Part shown: in pieces, positions 2,114 to 41,941 of the stretch
How the letters are laid out: each line of letters opens with the position of its first letter
Numbering within the stretch: the stretch's first letter is position 1
Assembly (NCBI GenBank): GCA_029378245.1
Contig: JARKIF010000009.1
Span: 1,054,001 to 1,118,000 of the forward strand
Reading direction: 5' to 3'
Origin: Roridomyces roridus
Taxonomy: Eukaryota > Basidiomycota > Agaricomycetes > Agaricales > Mycenaceae
Length of the DNA stretch: 64,000 bases
Translations under genes and position numbers: made by a program
The notes under the pieces: model-generated
Seen by the model: the letters and a program-made list of their open reading frames with translations, nothing else
What the model was told of the DNA's origin: nothing
The model's database searches: none

Positions 2114-4107
2114 TTAACAGTCCCACCCATACACGTAGTCCTCCACAGCTTCACCGCTGAGTTCTGCAGAGCCACAAATTCCAGATTGGAGTTCCTCCTT
2201 CAGGAGAAGATCGACGACATTGCGAGAAGCCAGGGTCTCTGTCTCCATCGTGCTGATGAATCTGGAAGCAGGTCAATATGAACCACGCCGCACAAAAAAC
2301 GACACATACGGCTCGAAAGCGTTGACGTAGTAGAACCCAGGGGCAAGCTTCACATCAGGGAATGTGGTCGTTGGTGGAAGGACGGGATATGCGTCCCACT
2401 TTGAACACGTAAGTACCTGGTAATAAAGTACTGCGCTGCACTTACCTCCTTCCGGTGCACCCAGCCAACTTGGCCCTCGAACATTTTTGACAGCCAAGCA
2501 TCCTCGATTCTGCTCTCAGAGAATATTTTGACAACAAACTCGCCTTCTCGTATAGCACCGTGGTACGATAACGAGTTGAACTCGGGTCTTGTCCCGCCAT
2601 TCCGTGCTCCATCGAACGTAGTTAGTAACATGGCGGGGATTTTGGTCGAAGCCGGGAGAGAGAATGACTGCGCCGGAACGCTCGGCAAAGTCGTGCTAAG
2701 GAGTGTAACATGGAGGTGAACATACGGCTGAGCAGGAATTCGTGAAGAAATGTCCGCGGGCAGTTCAATATTCGTCGAGTGCCAAGGCGCAGCAAGGATT
2801 ACGGCCATGTATGTTTCTGAGCCTCGATCACTTGTAATCTGCCATTGGCCAGATGCCGAACGGCTGATGGATTTCACCTGGGTATGGTCAACAAGGCTTT
2901 CCTGCATGGCAACAAAACTTACAAGGGTTTCCAGATAAACATTGGCTTTCGAATGGTTCAAGAACTGCTCAAAGACTTGGAAGTTTCCCCCTTCCACAGC
3001 GCTTGGCTGTATGAGTAATTTAATGGAGCGGACGGGAATGCTCACCTAGCTCCTGTTGGAGCCAAAGAGACCGCGCCGGCCAAGGCATGCATTCCGTCTG
3101 CGTTCTATCTTTGTTGGGTTCCATGTAGCTGACGGAGGGGCGAGATCGTACCTGGCCGTAATTGACGCGGGTGGACGCTTCGACCAACTCGTATATGAAT
3201 TGGTTCGATACACCTTCAGAGGCCAAATAGTCTGAGGTCGATTGGGTGAGCAATTCAGTCCATTCCAACGCGGAAGACAGGTCTAGACCACGTTATTGGG
3301 TGGGTCGCATACACGAGCAAAACATACGAGTGATATTGTCCCACTTGGGTGTTTCGACAGAGTAGAGAGTCAAGAATTTGCCGATCATCTTGAGCCGTTA
3401 AATTGGCGAAAATTCGCTCGTGGTTGAGTTGAACACACCTTGTCAACAAACTGCTGTGTCTTTCGCGGAGAGTGGAATCCATAGCGAAGAAGGATTTTGA
3501 CAGAATCCCATATACCCCACCAGCCGCCCATGGCCTGATGGTTCAGACTCGACATGCATAGTATGAGAACGAAATGCTCACGGTGAAAACAAGGGATTCT
3601 CCATTCCAGATGCCCATTCCGCTGGAATCTTCGCGAAAGTCGCGACGGGTCAAGTTGAACTCATCCACTGCCCTCCACATGTTCTTGTTGGCCTTGACGA
3701 ATATACTTGCGCCAAGTTCCACGGGAGGCAAACTCGTGTTCTAGAATGTTCTGCACGTGGTCCTGGAAGGAACGGAAACCGCACCTCATATGGGTAGACC
3801 ACGGTGCTCCCTGTAGCTCGTTACAACAACTGTCCAACGGGGCTTGCATGGGTGACGCACTTCCACCAACATAAGTATTCTTCTCGTAGATGTCGACTTC
3901 GACGTCGAGACCGAATCTCTCCTGGGCTTTTCCAAGCCAGAACGCAGCGCTGGAACCGCCAGCGCCAGCCCCGATGATGGCAATTCTTCGAGAGGGTACT
4001 GGCGGCAGGGGCTCTTGGGTGATGGGCTGATTGAAGAAGGGCAATTGGAAGGGCAGCTGGAAGCCGGAGACGATTGGAAACGCGACGAGAAGGTGATATA
4101 AGCGCAT
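2114..4107 (-). CDS. prenylcysteine oxidase (prenylcysteine lyase)
   Basis: FAD-dependent thioether oxidase that frees cysteine from farnesyl- or geranylgeranyl-cysteine left after breakdown of prenylated proteins, in the lysosome/vacuole or secretory route. The ATG at 4107 opens a hydrophobic signal peptide (MRLYHLLVAFPIVSG). It is followed by the Rossmann FAD motif RIAIIGAGAGGSSAAFWLG and the second-strand acidic block DIYEKNTYVGG. After a short intron come TSLPPVELGASIFVKANKNM and GIWNGESLVF, typical of the PCYOX family. The long middle exon (about 2350-3045) carries the substrate-domain part. The last exon reads FYYVNAFEPYVS then TMETETLASRNVVDLLL and stops at 2114-2116. The stop faces the ammonium transporter stop across 36 bp. 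It shares a 102-bp promoter with the F-box gene. Confidence 0.88.
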
Positions 4108-4209: not shown

Positions 4210-5938
4210 ATGGACGACACTCCTCCTGCGCTCTTCATGCTCCCACACGAGCTCCTTGAGTTCATCCTCCTCTTCTGCCACCCCCGAGACATCGCACATT
4301 TTGCGATGACTTGCCGCTCAGCGGAAACACTCGTGTATGGCTCTGTCGATCTCTACTTCTGGCGTCAATTGTTTCTCAACTACTTCGACGACCCCCGGCT
4401 GCAGCTTCCTCACCCTGTAGATGGCGCTTTTGACTGGAAGGGCCAATTAATTCGCCGAATGAAGGCGGAGAGAGTGGTATTCACTGGTGGCGATCGCCAG
4501 TCAGCCCTGGAAACCCTACTCTCCATCGCAGGCGAGGCCCTTCCCAGCTCGATTGTCATTCAACGCAGTCGCAATGTTGACTGGTTGCATCATGTATTGA
4601 GCACTTCGGCTGTTCTCGACGCGTCATTCGCTCCGAATGAAGCCCGGTTCGGCGACCGACTCAAGGCTTATATGGGCTTGTCGCTCACGCCAGATACCGA
4701 GGACAATCTCGAGCAACTGAGGACTACGCGTACTCACTCTAGGTGTGCCGTCTACGATCTGTGAAATTACCATCGAGGGATCTCGAGCAACTGAGGACTA
4801 CGCGTACTCGCTCTAGGTGTGCCGTCTACGATCTGCGAAATTACCATCGAGGGAACCGTTGGGGACCTTATATGACCGATGGTAGCATCAATTGGTCGCG
4901 GGTGGAACAGCTGATTAATGTTGTCGAAACCAATTTACGAGAACAGCAAATTGAACATCCCAGCATTCCCTTTCCCAGACCTCCGGTTGGTTTGCAGGCT
5001 ATCCGGCCTCATTCTGCCCCGGGGGATTTTTCTGGTGCGGATTGGGCTGGAGTTGAAGGTAATTTATCCTCCAATAATACCTCCCAGAAATTCTAAGCGC
5101 CGAACAGGAACCTGGCGGCGATATGTATGCTTCATGGATTATCGGTAGGCTATTTTCCCAGCTTATGAGGCTTCTGCTGAGTCTGCTTCACACAGTGATC
5201 TCTTTGGTCAGTAAAGTTGACTATGCACAAAACAACCTATTCATCCACATATCTACAGCATTCAATGTCAGCTCGTTCACTTCGTTTGGTTCTCGTCTAA
5301 CAGCGACCAGTTCTCTGATGCCGTTGGGGGCGCTCGAGACCCGTCTTTCTTTGACGACATCGAATTCCACGAAGCGACACGCCTCATCGAGCTTCAACTT
5401 CACCTGATACCTCGGGAGAAGATGCGGATCAAATTTCCGACGGGCGATCCCCCAGCTAACCCGCACAAGGACTATCCCACCTTGTACATATCTGGTACGT
5501 CCCGTGGTGCGTCCACCCAGGAAGCCATGGTCCAGGGCTTCGTATATATGGGAGAGGATTTTGTACCCCGGTGGCGGTTTGTGAGTACCCACGTCCAGTG
5601 TCTCTAAAAACGCGACTCATGTTATGGGAGACTTCTATCCACGACGGGCATCCGCAGTGGAGGTACTTTTTTTGTCCCTTTCTTTGGAACAAAAATAACG
5701 TTGTTTTGCAGTTCCGAAGGAGTTCAGATTGGCGGCATCGGGAGTGCGATGGGAGTATCCGGCACCTGGAGCGCATTTCATCACGGCGAAGGTAAGTCTG
5801 ATCTCTCTATCACTTGCAAATCACTAATTGCGAAGACGAAGGCGATCCTGTCGGGTAAGGTCATATTTACCTCTTCTTGCGTCTGTACTAAGACTTTCTC
5901 GTAGACCATATTGGTTGTGGAAAGTTGCTGCTCTGTAA
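4210..5938 (+). CDS. F-box protein with a newly arisen intron
   Basis: Putative substrate receptor of an SCF ubiquitin ligase. The ATG at 4210 starts the protein and an F-box follows within the first 60 residues (MLPHELLEFILLFCHPRDIA, then CRSAETLVYGSVDLYFWRQL). I resolve ten exons: 4210-4742, 4817-5058, 5108-5144, 5196-5206, 5259-5266, 5311-5580, 5631-5662, 5712-5791, 5842-5854 and 5905-5938. They sum to 1260 nt, a whole number of codons (419 residues). Downstream blocks are WRRYVCFMDYRDLFAFNFSD, DPSFFDDIEFHEATRLIELQ, GFVYMGEDFVPRWRF, SSEGVQIGGIGSAMGVSGTW and the end DPVGPYWLWKVAAL. This C-terminal part resembles a domain I recall from other Agaricomycete F-box proteins; its ligand is unknown. 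Intron 1 arises from a 74-bp tandem duplication. Read without splicing it there, the frame hits TGA in copy 1. Confidence 0.85.
4708..4855 (+). repeat. 74-bp tandem duplication inside the F-box coding sequence
   Basis: Copy 1 (4708-4781) and copy 2 (4782-4855) are direct tandem copies. Apart from the boundary base they differ at two positions: an A/G change before the CTCTAG, and a T/C change that makes TGA in copy 1 where copy 2 has CGA. Each copy contains CTCTAGGTGTGCC, an AG-GT protosplice site. The unit length is not a multiple of three. Confidence 0.97.
4743..4816 (+). other. inferred 74-nt intron created by the tandem duplication
   Basis: The donor is the GTGTGC of copy 1, after AG at 4741-4742. 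The acceptor is the CGCTCTAG of copy 2, ending at 4816. Removing it restores one uninterrupted copy of the coding segment and a divisible-by-three coding length. It is longer than the gene's other eight introns, which are 44-52 nt. Confidence 0.75.
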
Positions 5939-39100: not shown

Positions 39101-41941
39101 ACTCGGAAACGAGAGGCTGAAGAAGCTGCCCGTCTCGCAGAGGCTCAGAAGATCGCAGCCGAGGAAGCTGAGCGCGCACGTCTCGAGGAGCAAGAGCGCT
39201 CGCGGGTGGAGGAGGAGCGTATCGCTGAGGAGCGTCGGATTCAGGCCGAAAAGGAGGCAGAGGAAGCTGCTGCGGCTCTGCTTGCTAAGCAGAAATTCGA
39301 AGCCGCCGAACGCGAGAGGCTCGAACTTGAACGTTTGGAGGAAGAGCGCCGGGTTCAGGCGGAGCGGGAAAGGGTGGCGGCCGAAGCTGAGGCTGCTGAA
39401 GCTGCTCGTGTCAAAGCTGAGGAGGCGGAGGCTGCCAGGGTAGCCGCAGAGAAGGCTCAGCAAGAAGCTGAAGCTGAAGCCGCTCGACTCGCCGAGGAAG
39501 AGCGCCTGGCCGCTGAGGCTGAAGCCTCTCGTCTTAAAGCTGAGGAGGAAGCCCGAGTTGCAGCTGAAGCAGAGGCCGCTCGTCTCAAGGCTGAGGAGGA
39601 GGAAGCTGCGAGGGTAGCCGCGGAGAAGGAACGGATCGCGGCGGAAGAGGCTGAGAAGGCGAGGTTGGCAGAGGCGGCTGAGAAAGCCAGGTTGGAAGCC
39701 GAAGCTGAGGCTGCTCGGCTGGCCGCCGAAGAGGCAGCCCGAGTTGCAGCTGAAGCTGAAGCCGCTCGACTCGCCCAAGAGGAGGCGCAGCGGATCGCGG
39801 CGGAAGAGGCTGAGAAGGTGAGGTTGGCAGAGGAGGCTGAGAAAGCAAGATTGGAGGCCGAAGCCGAGGCTGCACGACTCGCCGCCGAGGAGGAGGCCCG
39901 ACTTGCAGCGGAGAAGGAGCGAATCGCGGCGGAAGAGGCTGAGAAGGCGAGGTTGGCGGAAGAGGCTGAGAAGGCAAGGTTGGAAGCCGAAGCTGAGGCT
40001 GCTCGACTCGCCGCCGAAGAGGAAGCCCGAGTTGCAGCTGAAGCTGAAGCCGCTCGACTCGCCCAAGAGGAGGCCCAGCGGATCGCGGCTGAAGCGGCTG
40101 AGAAGGCGAGGTTGGCAGAGGAAGCCGAGAAAGCAAGGCTGGAAGCCGAAGCAGAGGCTGCTCGTCTCAAAGCGGAGGAGGAGGCGGCCAGGGTAGCGGC
40201 TGAAGCTGAAGCTGCTCGACTTGCCGAAGAAGAGGCCCAACGCATCGCTGCCGAAGCAGAGGCTGCTCGTCTCAAAGCGGAGGAGGAGGCCCGAGTTGCA
40301 GCCGAAGCCGCTCGTCTCAAAGCTGAGGAGGAGGCCAGGGTAGCGGCTGAGGCTGAAGCCGCGCGTCTCAAAGCGGAGGAGGAAGCCAGAGCCGCAGCTG
40401 AAGCTGAAGCTGCTCGTCTCAAGGCCGAGGAAGAGGAACGCGCCAGGGTAGCAGCTGAAGAGGAGGCTGCTCGTCTCAAAGCTGAAGAAGAGGAGCGCGC
40501 TAGGGTAGCGGCTGAAGAGGAGGCCGCTCGTCTCAAGGCCGAGGAGGAAGCTGCTCGTCTCAAGGCTGAGGAAGAGGAGGCTGCTCGTCTCAAGGCTGAG
40601 GAAGAGGAGGCTGCTCGTCTCAAAGCTGAAGAAGAGGAGCGCGCTGGGGTAGCGGCTGAGGAGGAGGCCGCTCGTCTCAAGGCTGAGGAGGAGGAGCGCG
40701 CTAGGGTAGCGGCTGAGGAGGAGGCCGCTCGTCTCAAGGCTGAGGAGGAGGAGCGCGCCAGGGTAGCAGCTGAAGAGGAGGCTGCTCGTGTCAAGGCTGA
40801 GGAGGAAGCACGAGTTGCAGCAGAAGCAGAAGCCGCTCGTCTCAAAGCCGAGGAGGAGGCTGCAAGGGTAGCGGCTGAAGAGGAGGCTGCTCGTCTCAAA
40901 GCTGAGGAGGAGGAGCGCGCCAGGATAGCGGCTGAAGAGGAGGCCGCTCGTGTCAAGGCCGAGGAGGAAGCCCGAGTTGCAGCAGAGGCAGAAGCCGCTC
41001 GTCTCAAAGCCGAGGAGGAGGAGGCTGCCAGGATAGCGGCGGAGAAGGAGCGGATAGCGGCGGAAGAGGCTGAGAAGGCGAGGTTGGCAGAGGAGGCTGA
41101 GAAAGCAAGGTTGGAAGCCGAAGCCGAGGCTGCTCGGCTGGCCGCCGAAGAGGCAGCTCGAGTTGCAGCTGAAGCTGAAGCCGCTCGACTCGCTCAAGAG
41201 GAGACCCAGCGGATCGCGGCTGAAGAGGCTGAGAAAGCAAGGTTGGCAGAGGAGGCCGAGAAAGCAAGGTTGGAGGCCGAAGCAGAGGCTGCACGACTCG
41301 CGGCCGAAGCTGAAGCCGCCCGTCTCCAAGCTGAGGAGGAGGAGAGAGCCCGGGTTTTGGCAGAGGAGGCTGCGGCGAAAGCGCGGCAAGAGGCTGAAGC
41401 TGAAGCTGCTCGTCTCAAAGCCGAGGAGGAGGAGGAGGCCAGGGTAGCCGCGGAGCAGGCCGAGAAAGAGCGCCTAGCACAGCTTGCCGCCGAGCAAGAA
41501 GCTGCCGAGCAGGCCGAAGCCGCGACTGATGCAGCCGAGAAAGCCGAGGTGCGTGACTGACAATCTGAATACTTGAGCCATTCCGTCCAATGTCTCTCAG
41601 CCTACCACTGCGATGGACCCCACTGCAAATGAACACGTCGAGGCGCTGCGAGAGCCAGCAGCAGAAAATGACAAGCATGTCGATCTGCCGGCGGTGCCAG
41701 TCGTGGAAGCGAGGCCTGGATTAGATCGTGGATCTACCGTGATATCGCACCTCGAACTGACGCCCAACGATGATATTCCTGGTGGAGAGACGCCTGGTCC
41801 TCAGGTCGCTCTAGATGTTCCTGCCGAAGAGAGTGGCCCTGCCAATGGTTAGTTTTGGTTTTCATCGCTGTACAATATACTCATGATACAACAGGCAACG
41901 GTGTTCACGAGGTAGAGGACGCCAGCGACAAGGCTGAATAA
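36134..41941 (+). CDS. MSB1/Mug8-domain polarity protein with giant Ala-Glu-Arg repeat tail
   Basis: Probable Rho-pathway polarity protein. The ATG at 36134 gives MPSFLSRLFNRKPSSEE and a Pro/Ser-rich lead. The Msb1/Mug8 domain (RhoGAP-like fold) spans roughly residues 90-420, with LDWQLSLKLPGPAEESSRAL, LVAESVIGERRLSPLETFLL, GLETLGIFVPHFYSSSPSVQ, HDVAAVLRWGLRHLQLDNFG, KMLGLWLLAAPRV and FYATWERWGRVLEHLFLAKI. A second conserved part follows (EAFMDFWSDGLLDPISSNWP, VDWLVLEQQFVT), then basic/Ser-rich linkers. From 39090 to about 41560 some 820 codons are an uninterrupted repeat of AEEEARLKA-type units. Two small exons end the protein (LELTPNDDIPGGE; NGVHEVEDASDKAE), with TAA at 41939-41941. Long antisense ORFs over the repeat are composition artefacts. 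Confidence 0.85.
39090..41560 (+). repeat. coding repeat rich in Ala, Glu, Arg and Lys
   Basis: Diverged units of about 8-20 codons (EEEARVAAEAEAARLKA, EKARLAEEAEKARLEAEAEA, EEERARVAAEEEAARLKA) repeat without a break. The pattern of E/K/R spaced 3-4 residues apart predicts a very long charged alpha-helix (single alpha-helix or coiled coil). At DNA level the commonest unit is GCTCGTCTCAAGGCTGAGGA. Confidence 0.95.

Follow-up and report, generated by a model that had tools for sequence, protein, structure and literature searches.

An unusually fresh candidate intron traced to tandem duplication of an exon segment in an F-box gene of Roridomyces roridus

An F-box gene of the Mycenaceae mushroom Roridomyces roridus contains a 74-bp coding segment that is repeated head to tail, and we judge it probable (roughly 75%) that this repeat created a very young intron by the AGGT tandem-duplication route of intron birth (Rogers, 1989). 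By this route, the 74-bp exon segment would already have held an AG/GT (within TAGGTGTGC) resembling both a donor and an acceptor, together with a CTGA that resembles a branch site and a tract of CTCT. Following its tandem duplication in the R. roridus lineage, the upstream AG/GT would act as the 5′ splice site and the downstream AG/GT as the 3′ splice site, so that the spliceosome would remove exactly one unit length and leave the mRNA and the protein unchanged. The duplication origin of the proposed intron is directly visible in the sequence, and its reading as an intron is well supported by splice signals, reading frame, the proteins of relatives and a public gene model. We infer that splicing does occur, efficiently and on a fixed allele, and that unspliced RNA is subject to nonsense-mediated decay. 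The locus would be an unusually fresh case of a known intron-gain mechanism.

The duplicated segment and the reading frame

Positions refer to the window, i.e., the whole 64,000-nt stretch of DNA that was analysed. The features discussed below are as follows.

4210-5938, plus strand: F-box gene, ten exons (1260 nt, 419 aa)
4210-4742, 4817-5058, 5108-5144, 5196-5206, 5259-5266, 5311-5580, 5631-5662, 5712-5791, 5842-5854, 5905-5938, plus strand: exons of the F-box gene in the model with the 74-nt intron
4706-4779, plus strand: copy 1 of the 74-bp unit; first 37 nt, end of exon 1; last 37 nt, 5′ half of the proposed intron
4780-4853, plus strand: copy 2 of the 74-bp unit; first 37 nt, 3′ half of the proposed intron; last 37 nt, start of exon 2
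4743-4816, plus strand: proposed newborn intron, 74 nt (donor TAG/GTGTGC, acceptor CTCTAG/GTG)
4762-4764, plus strand: in-frame TGA in copy 1, inside the proposed intron; CGA (Arg) in copy 2
4790-4795, plus strand: ACTGAG, the best candidate branch site, with its A (4794) 22 nt upstream of the intron's 3′ end (a consensus match only)

Direct comparison of the two units showed them to be identical at 72 of 74 positions, in agreement with Tandem Repeats Finder, which reported an array of period 74 at 4706-4854. The head-to-tail duplication with two substitutions described in the original prediction was thus borne out, although its outer limits (4705-4857) were a few bases too wide for a unit pair spanning 4706-4853. 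AGGT occurs at 4741-4744 and 4815-4818, the same place in either copy as had been claimed, and the TAGGTGTGC that contains it is present in both. The copies differ at unit offset 30 (A at 4736, G at 4810) and at offset 56 (T at 4762, C at 4836); both differences are compatible with CpG transitions in which copy 1 holds the changed state. The CpG observed/expected ratio over 254 kb was 0.996, which argues against genome-wide CpG decay. By eye, the matching ends at the duplication junction amount to one base at most. The predicted RNA fold across the duplicated region was weaker than that of shuffled sequences (z 1.82) and so gives no argument from structure.

Excision of 4743-4816 (GTGTGC...CTCTAG) removes exactly one unit and restores the reading frame, as originally proposed. 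When this segment is retained the frame meets in-frame TGA codons at 4762 and 4792. The stop at 4792 would end translation even before the base change that created the TGA at 4762, and the latter change lies inside the proposed intron and would hence have been free there. At 74 nt the proposed intron is longer than the other eight introns of the gene, whose range of 44-52 nt matched the earlier figure. Twenty-six different 74-nt excisions yield the public protein over residues 1-255, and only that of 4743-4816 has GT-AG ends. In the scanned span, 91 GT/GC-AG pairs, this one included, leave the frame open through 5058. The nearby GT-AG pairs 4647/4693 and 4647/4742 score slightly above 4743/4816, and 4817/4910 scores equally; none of these three is among the junctions that keep the frame open.

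The ten-exon model has a Pfam F-box match at residues 9-42 (22.5 bits, cut-off 20.5). Its coding sequence totals the predicted 1260 nt when intron 8 ends at 5841, an acceptor chosen to follow a GDPVGP-like motif of the relatives. The alternative acceptor at 5835 (intron of 44 nt, coding sequence of 1266 nt) was rejected as poorer, the motif requiring the 50-nt intron. No other disabling change was found in the rest of the model, and conservation is higher downstream of the junction (72-79% identity to five relatives) than upstream of it (53-63%). The gene, with its duplicated pair, matched one place in the 90.8-Mb assembly. Searches of the assembly with 251 and 1741 bases of DNA produced no paralogue or second allele among the best-scoring candidates, and a protein search returned four matches, all of them pieces of this F-box gene.

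Relatives and the age of the duplication

Of 228 related proteins found, 120 were listed; the best 40 of these were aligned, and 39 were counted after leaving out P0001, the protein of R. roridus itself. Residues 172-186 are free of insertions and deletions in all 39, where the duplicated segment is coding, although introns are invisible in such protein comparisons. The protein rebuilt by the splice needs no indel at the junction relative to any of them. At the codon now read as TGA in copy 1, 37 of the 39 have Arg; the other differing codon is variable (Arg in 22, His in one). Since the proposed intron is a copy of its flanking exon, the gene was presumably continuous over the unit before the duplication.

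The divergence between the copies is 2.7% (95% interval 0.3-9.4%), and the nearest relative's protein, among the matches listed, is 72% identical. These values place the duplication long after the split from every one of the sampled species. The original prediction had left a choice between a very young intron and a recent null allele rescued by splicing. The young duplication stood, and the two descriptions refer to one event at different times, which our data do not separate.

A public protein of R. roridus, the hypothetical protein FB45DRAFT_915944, was the best protein match and is the same as the product of the ten-exon model over the entire duplicated region. It reads straight through; copy 1 supplies its His176 and copy 2 its Arg185, and the public model uses the 4742/4817 junction. 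The public protein lacks the LFAFN and DPVG segments (window 5145-5303 and 5792-5904) present in the ten-exon model. LFAFN occurs in 32 of the 39 relatives and DPVGP or DPAGP in 34, and the public protein thus seems to be mis-modelled at these two places, where its gene model was likely computed. Because it departs from the relatives at two segments, it does not amount to transcript proof across the duplication. No R. roridus genome paper was found among the matches listed; passages on the genome of a relative, Favolaschia claudopus, mention long reads, RNA-seq and the JGI pipeline and are silent on R. roridus (PMC10905254).

Splice signals and expectation by chance

A crude self-trained gene finder run on 254 kb gave 620 predicted introns, those of the F-box gene left out of the count, with a median length of 49 nt. 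The second run was used; its introns are themselves predictions, and its matrices began from the same fixed consensus, drawn up from general knowledge of fungal introns, that also served as the second scoring matrix. The first settings were abandoned as they ran into a few giant genes, and a training set of introns taken from ORFs only was rejected because decoy dinucleotides yielded about as many candidates as GT-AG. The predicted introns show GTRNGT-like donors and CTNAY-like branch signals. Among them, the proposed intron ranks at the 63rd percentile for its donor, the 38th for its acceptor and the 27th in total; the ACTGAG branch match is weak (12th percentile). Within the gene, its splice score exceeds those of five of the other eight introns with the trained and the fixed matrix alike. 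Introns of at least 70 nt make up 17 of the 620 predictions, so that 74 nt is long for this genome, although the length prior of that set is self-reinforcing. The gene finder accepted the 74-nt intron in iterations 0-4; in iterations 5-7, with the length prior tightening, it was dropped and the gene was split. Of the other eight introns of the gene the program found only two, which makes it a crude guide for or against the 74-nt intron.

Simulated duplications were used to gauge how readily such sites arise. AG-GT fell at matching places in 11.6-20.1% of simulated 50-100 bp duplications in predicted coding sequence. For 74-bp duplications the figure was 16% both in predicted coding sequence and in long ORFs, and 23% when raw sequence was used. 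Scores at least as high as that of the target were reached in predicted coding sequence by 122 (trained matrix) and 22 (fixed matrix) of 15,000 duplications (0.15-0.8%; 0.9% in a separate run). Because this simulation carries a bias against splice-like sites, further runs were made in long ORFs, where 383 (trained) and 41 (fixed) of 20,000 reached that score (0.2-1.9%), and in raw sequence, with 663 and 185 of 20,000, respectively (0.9-3.3%). The rarity of target-level scores suggests that most such duplications would break a gene and that this one belongs to the few expected to splice. In the gene's own coding sequence, 79 of 986 74-bp windows hold AG-GT, and 60 (trained) or 42 (fixed) score as well as the target; a site would thus be ready in about 4-6% of this gene's windows.

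Alternative explanations

An alternative that we regard as improbable is that of a fresh null allele, in which the duplication broke the gene by frameshift and TGA, splicing is inefficient, and either the gene is being lost or its allele still segregates. A unit of 74 bp is not a multiple of 3, its retention brings in both stops, and the TGA at 4762, at a codon so consistently Arg in the relatives, fits a change in copy 1 after the duplication. The assembly holds no second gene to fill in, a point that could count either way. The otherwise intact ten-exon model speaks against a null allele, although weakly, since a recent null would not yet show damage. Also against it are the splice score, on par with those of the gene's other introns and within the top 0.15-3.3% of simulated duplications, and the public annotation, which splices out the 74-nt segment.

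Less probable still is an assembly artefact, by which two haplotypes or reads were joined into a false tandem copy of a gene that is really single-copy and intronless here. Assemblies are known to be error-prone at short, near-identical tandem copies, and a single copy would give the same protein. However, the copies differ at two sites, and copy 1, if taken as a haplotype, would carry a stop at the conserved Arg codon. The contig also spans 2,441,334 bases (2.44 Mb), which suggests, without proving, long reads.

Splicing through other sites, such as 4743-4795 (53 nt, adding 7 aa), is very improbable: open-frame pairs are plentiful and this one is more typical in length, but it needs a GAG acceptor (G at -3 has a frequency of 0.01 among the predicted introns) and falls outside the 12 best pairs, whereas 4743-4816 keeps the protein as it is in the relatives.

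The young-intron reading has a more demanding form, which we consider rather doubtful. It holds that the intron is near its birth, having been fully functional from the duplication onward because every signal was already present in the exon, that it keeps the exon-born branch-like element and CTCT, and that it may be segregating with a single-copy allele in wild R. roridus. If this were true, the fitness and the efficiency of a newborn intron would be measurable in nature.

Comparison with known intron gains

The AGGT model had been cited in the original prediction as proposed and experimentally reproduced, which holds; its statement on the rarity of natural cases should be toned down. A table in a 2012 review counts 188 gains by tandem duplication, many of which are imprecise, across seven named groups with Cryptococcus among them; it is silent on how many are near-identical and precise (PMC3443670). 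Recent gains with a known source sequence are described as few (PMC4974935). At the present locus donor, branch-like element, acceptor and parent exon are readable base by base, which opens to direct test the question of how much information has to be present in an exon before it can turn into an intron. In the titles and abstract openings of the matches listed, we found no report of this locus and none of a nuclear tandem-duplication intron in a mushroom.

The closest parallel is an intron of vertebrate ATP2A1 (Hellsten et al., 2011; described in PMC4974935). There, too, an exonic segment with AGGT was duplicated head to tail, the copies supplied GT and AG, the branch site and pyrimidines lay inside the duplicated exon, and the protein was unchanged. 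By the same account that gain was reproduced in the laboratory. It is presumably also the vertebrate gain, nearly 500 million years old and with the gene unnamed, of which the review speaks (PMC3443670), whereas the R. roridus copies are still 97% identical and their splicing is predicted. Among fungi, SPOG_01682 and SOCG_00815 of fission yeasts have introns made of tandem exon repeats whose copies are likewise not quite identical, in their case with ESTs; they differ in having 24-nt units, several of which the intron spans, in place of one 74-nt duplication with AGGT (PMC3629103). Their sites are given as AGGC in PMC3629103 and as AGGT in PMC4974935. The potato RdRp intron is also a recent tandem-duplication gain, but there the duplicated unit runs across a pre-existing intron-exon border and the old intron passed on most of the signals (PMC4974935), while the R. 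roridus unit is wholly exonic.

Introners and introner-like elements resemble the present case as recent intron gains known in fungi but are many-copy elements (PMC9860276, PMC4457414). An introner would need many similar copies in the introns of other genes, and this explanation was rejected on the single DNA match in the 90.8-Mb assembly (best-scoring candidates). New introns of Drosophila reportedly tend towards weaker sites and often hold premature stops, unspliced RNA being degraded as a back-up (PMC2809761); by analogy, the stop codons in the proposed R. roridus intron would fit this picture.

Tandem arrays in the surrounding sequence

A tandem scan (period 20-400, at least 85% identity, smallest period kept where arrays overlap) found six arrays in the window, namely this one and five at 39.9-41.3 kb with periods that are multiples of 3. 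With a further 196 kb of the same contig the number was 11, three of them with a period not divisible by 3: the 74-bp pair, an array of period 20 (L016) and one of period 32 (L017). Neither of the latter has AGGT in its printed unit. The proposed intron is 97% identical to its joined flanking exon ends. Among the 620 predicted introns no older footprint of tandem duplication was found, the best reaching 54% vs. 52% in 1860 mismatched controls. Within the 0.3% of the genome examined, the duplication is one event and not a habit.

The 32-bp repeat lies at L017:2208-2285 and is about 91% identical. At 39494-41326 of the window, a long array with units such as 27, 30, 51 and 57 bp encodes, by eye, an Ala-Glu-Arg-rich repeat. 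Tandem 228-bp units at L013:1867-2358 read MQIFVKTLTGKT by eye, which we take to point to a polyubiquitin gene. Divergent from the F-box gene, on the minus strand at 2350-4107, lie pieces with hits to Prenylcys_lyase (68 bits) and to an NAD-binding N-terminal model; they presumably form one gene.
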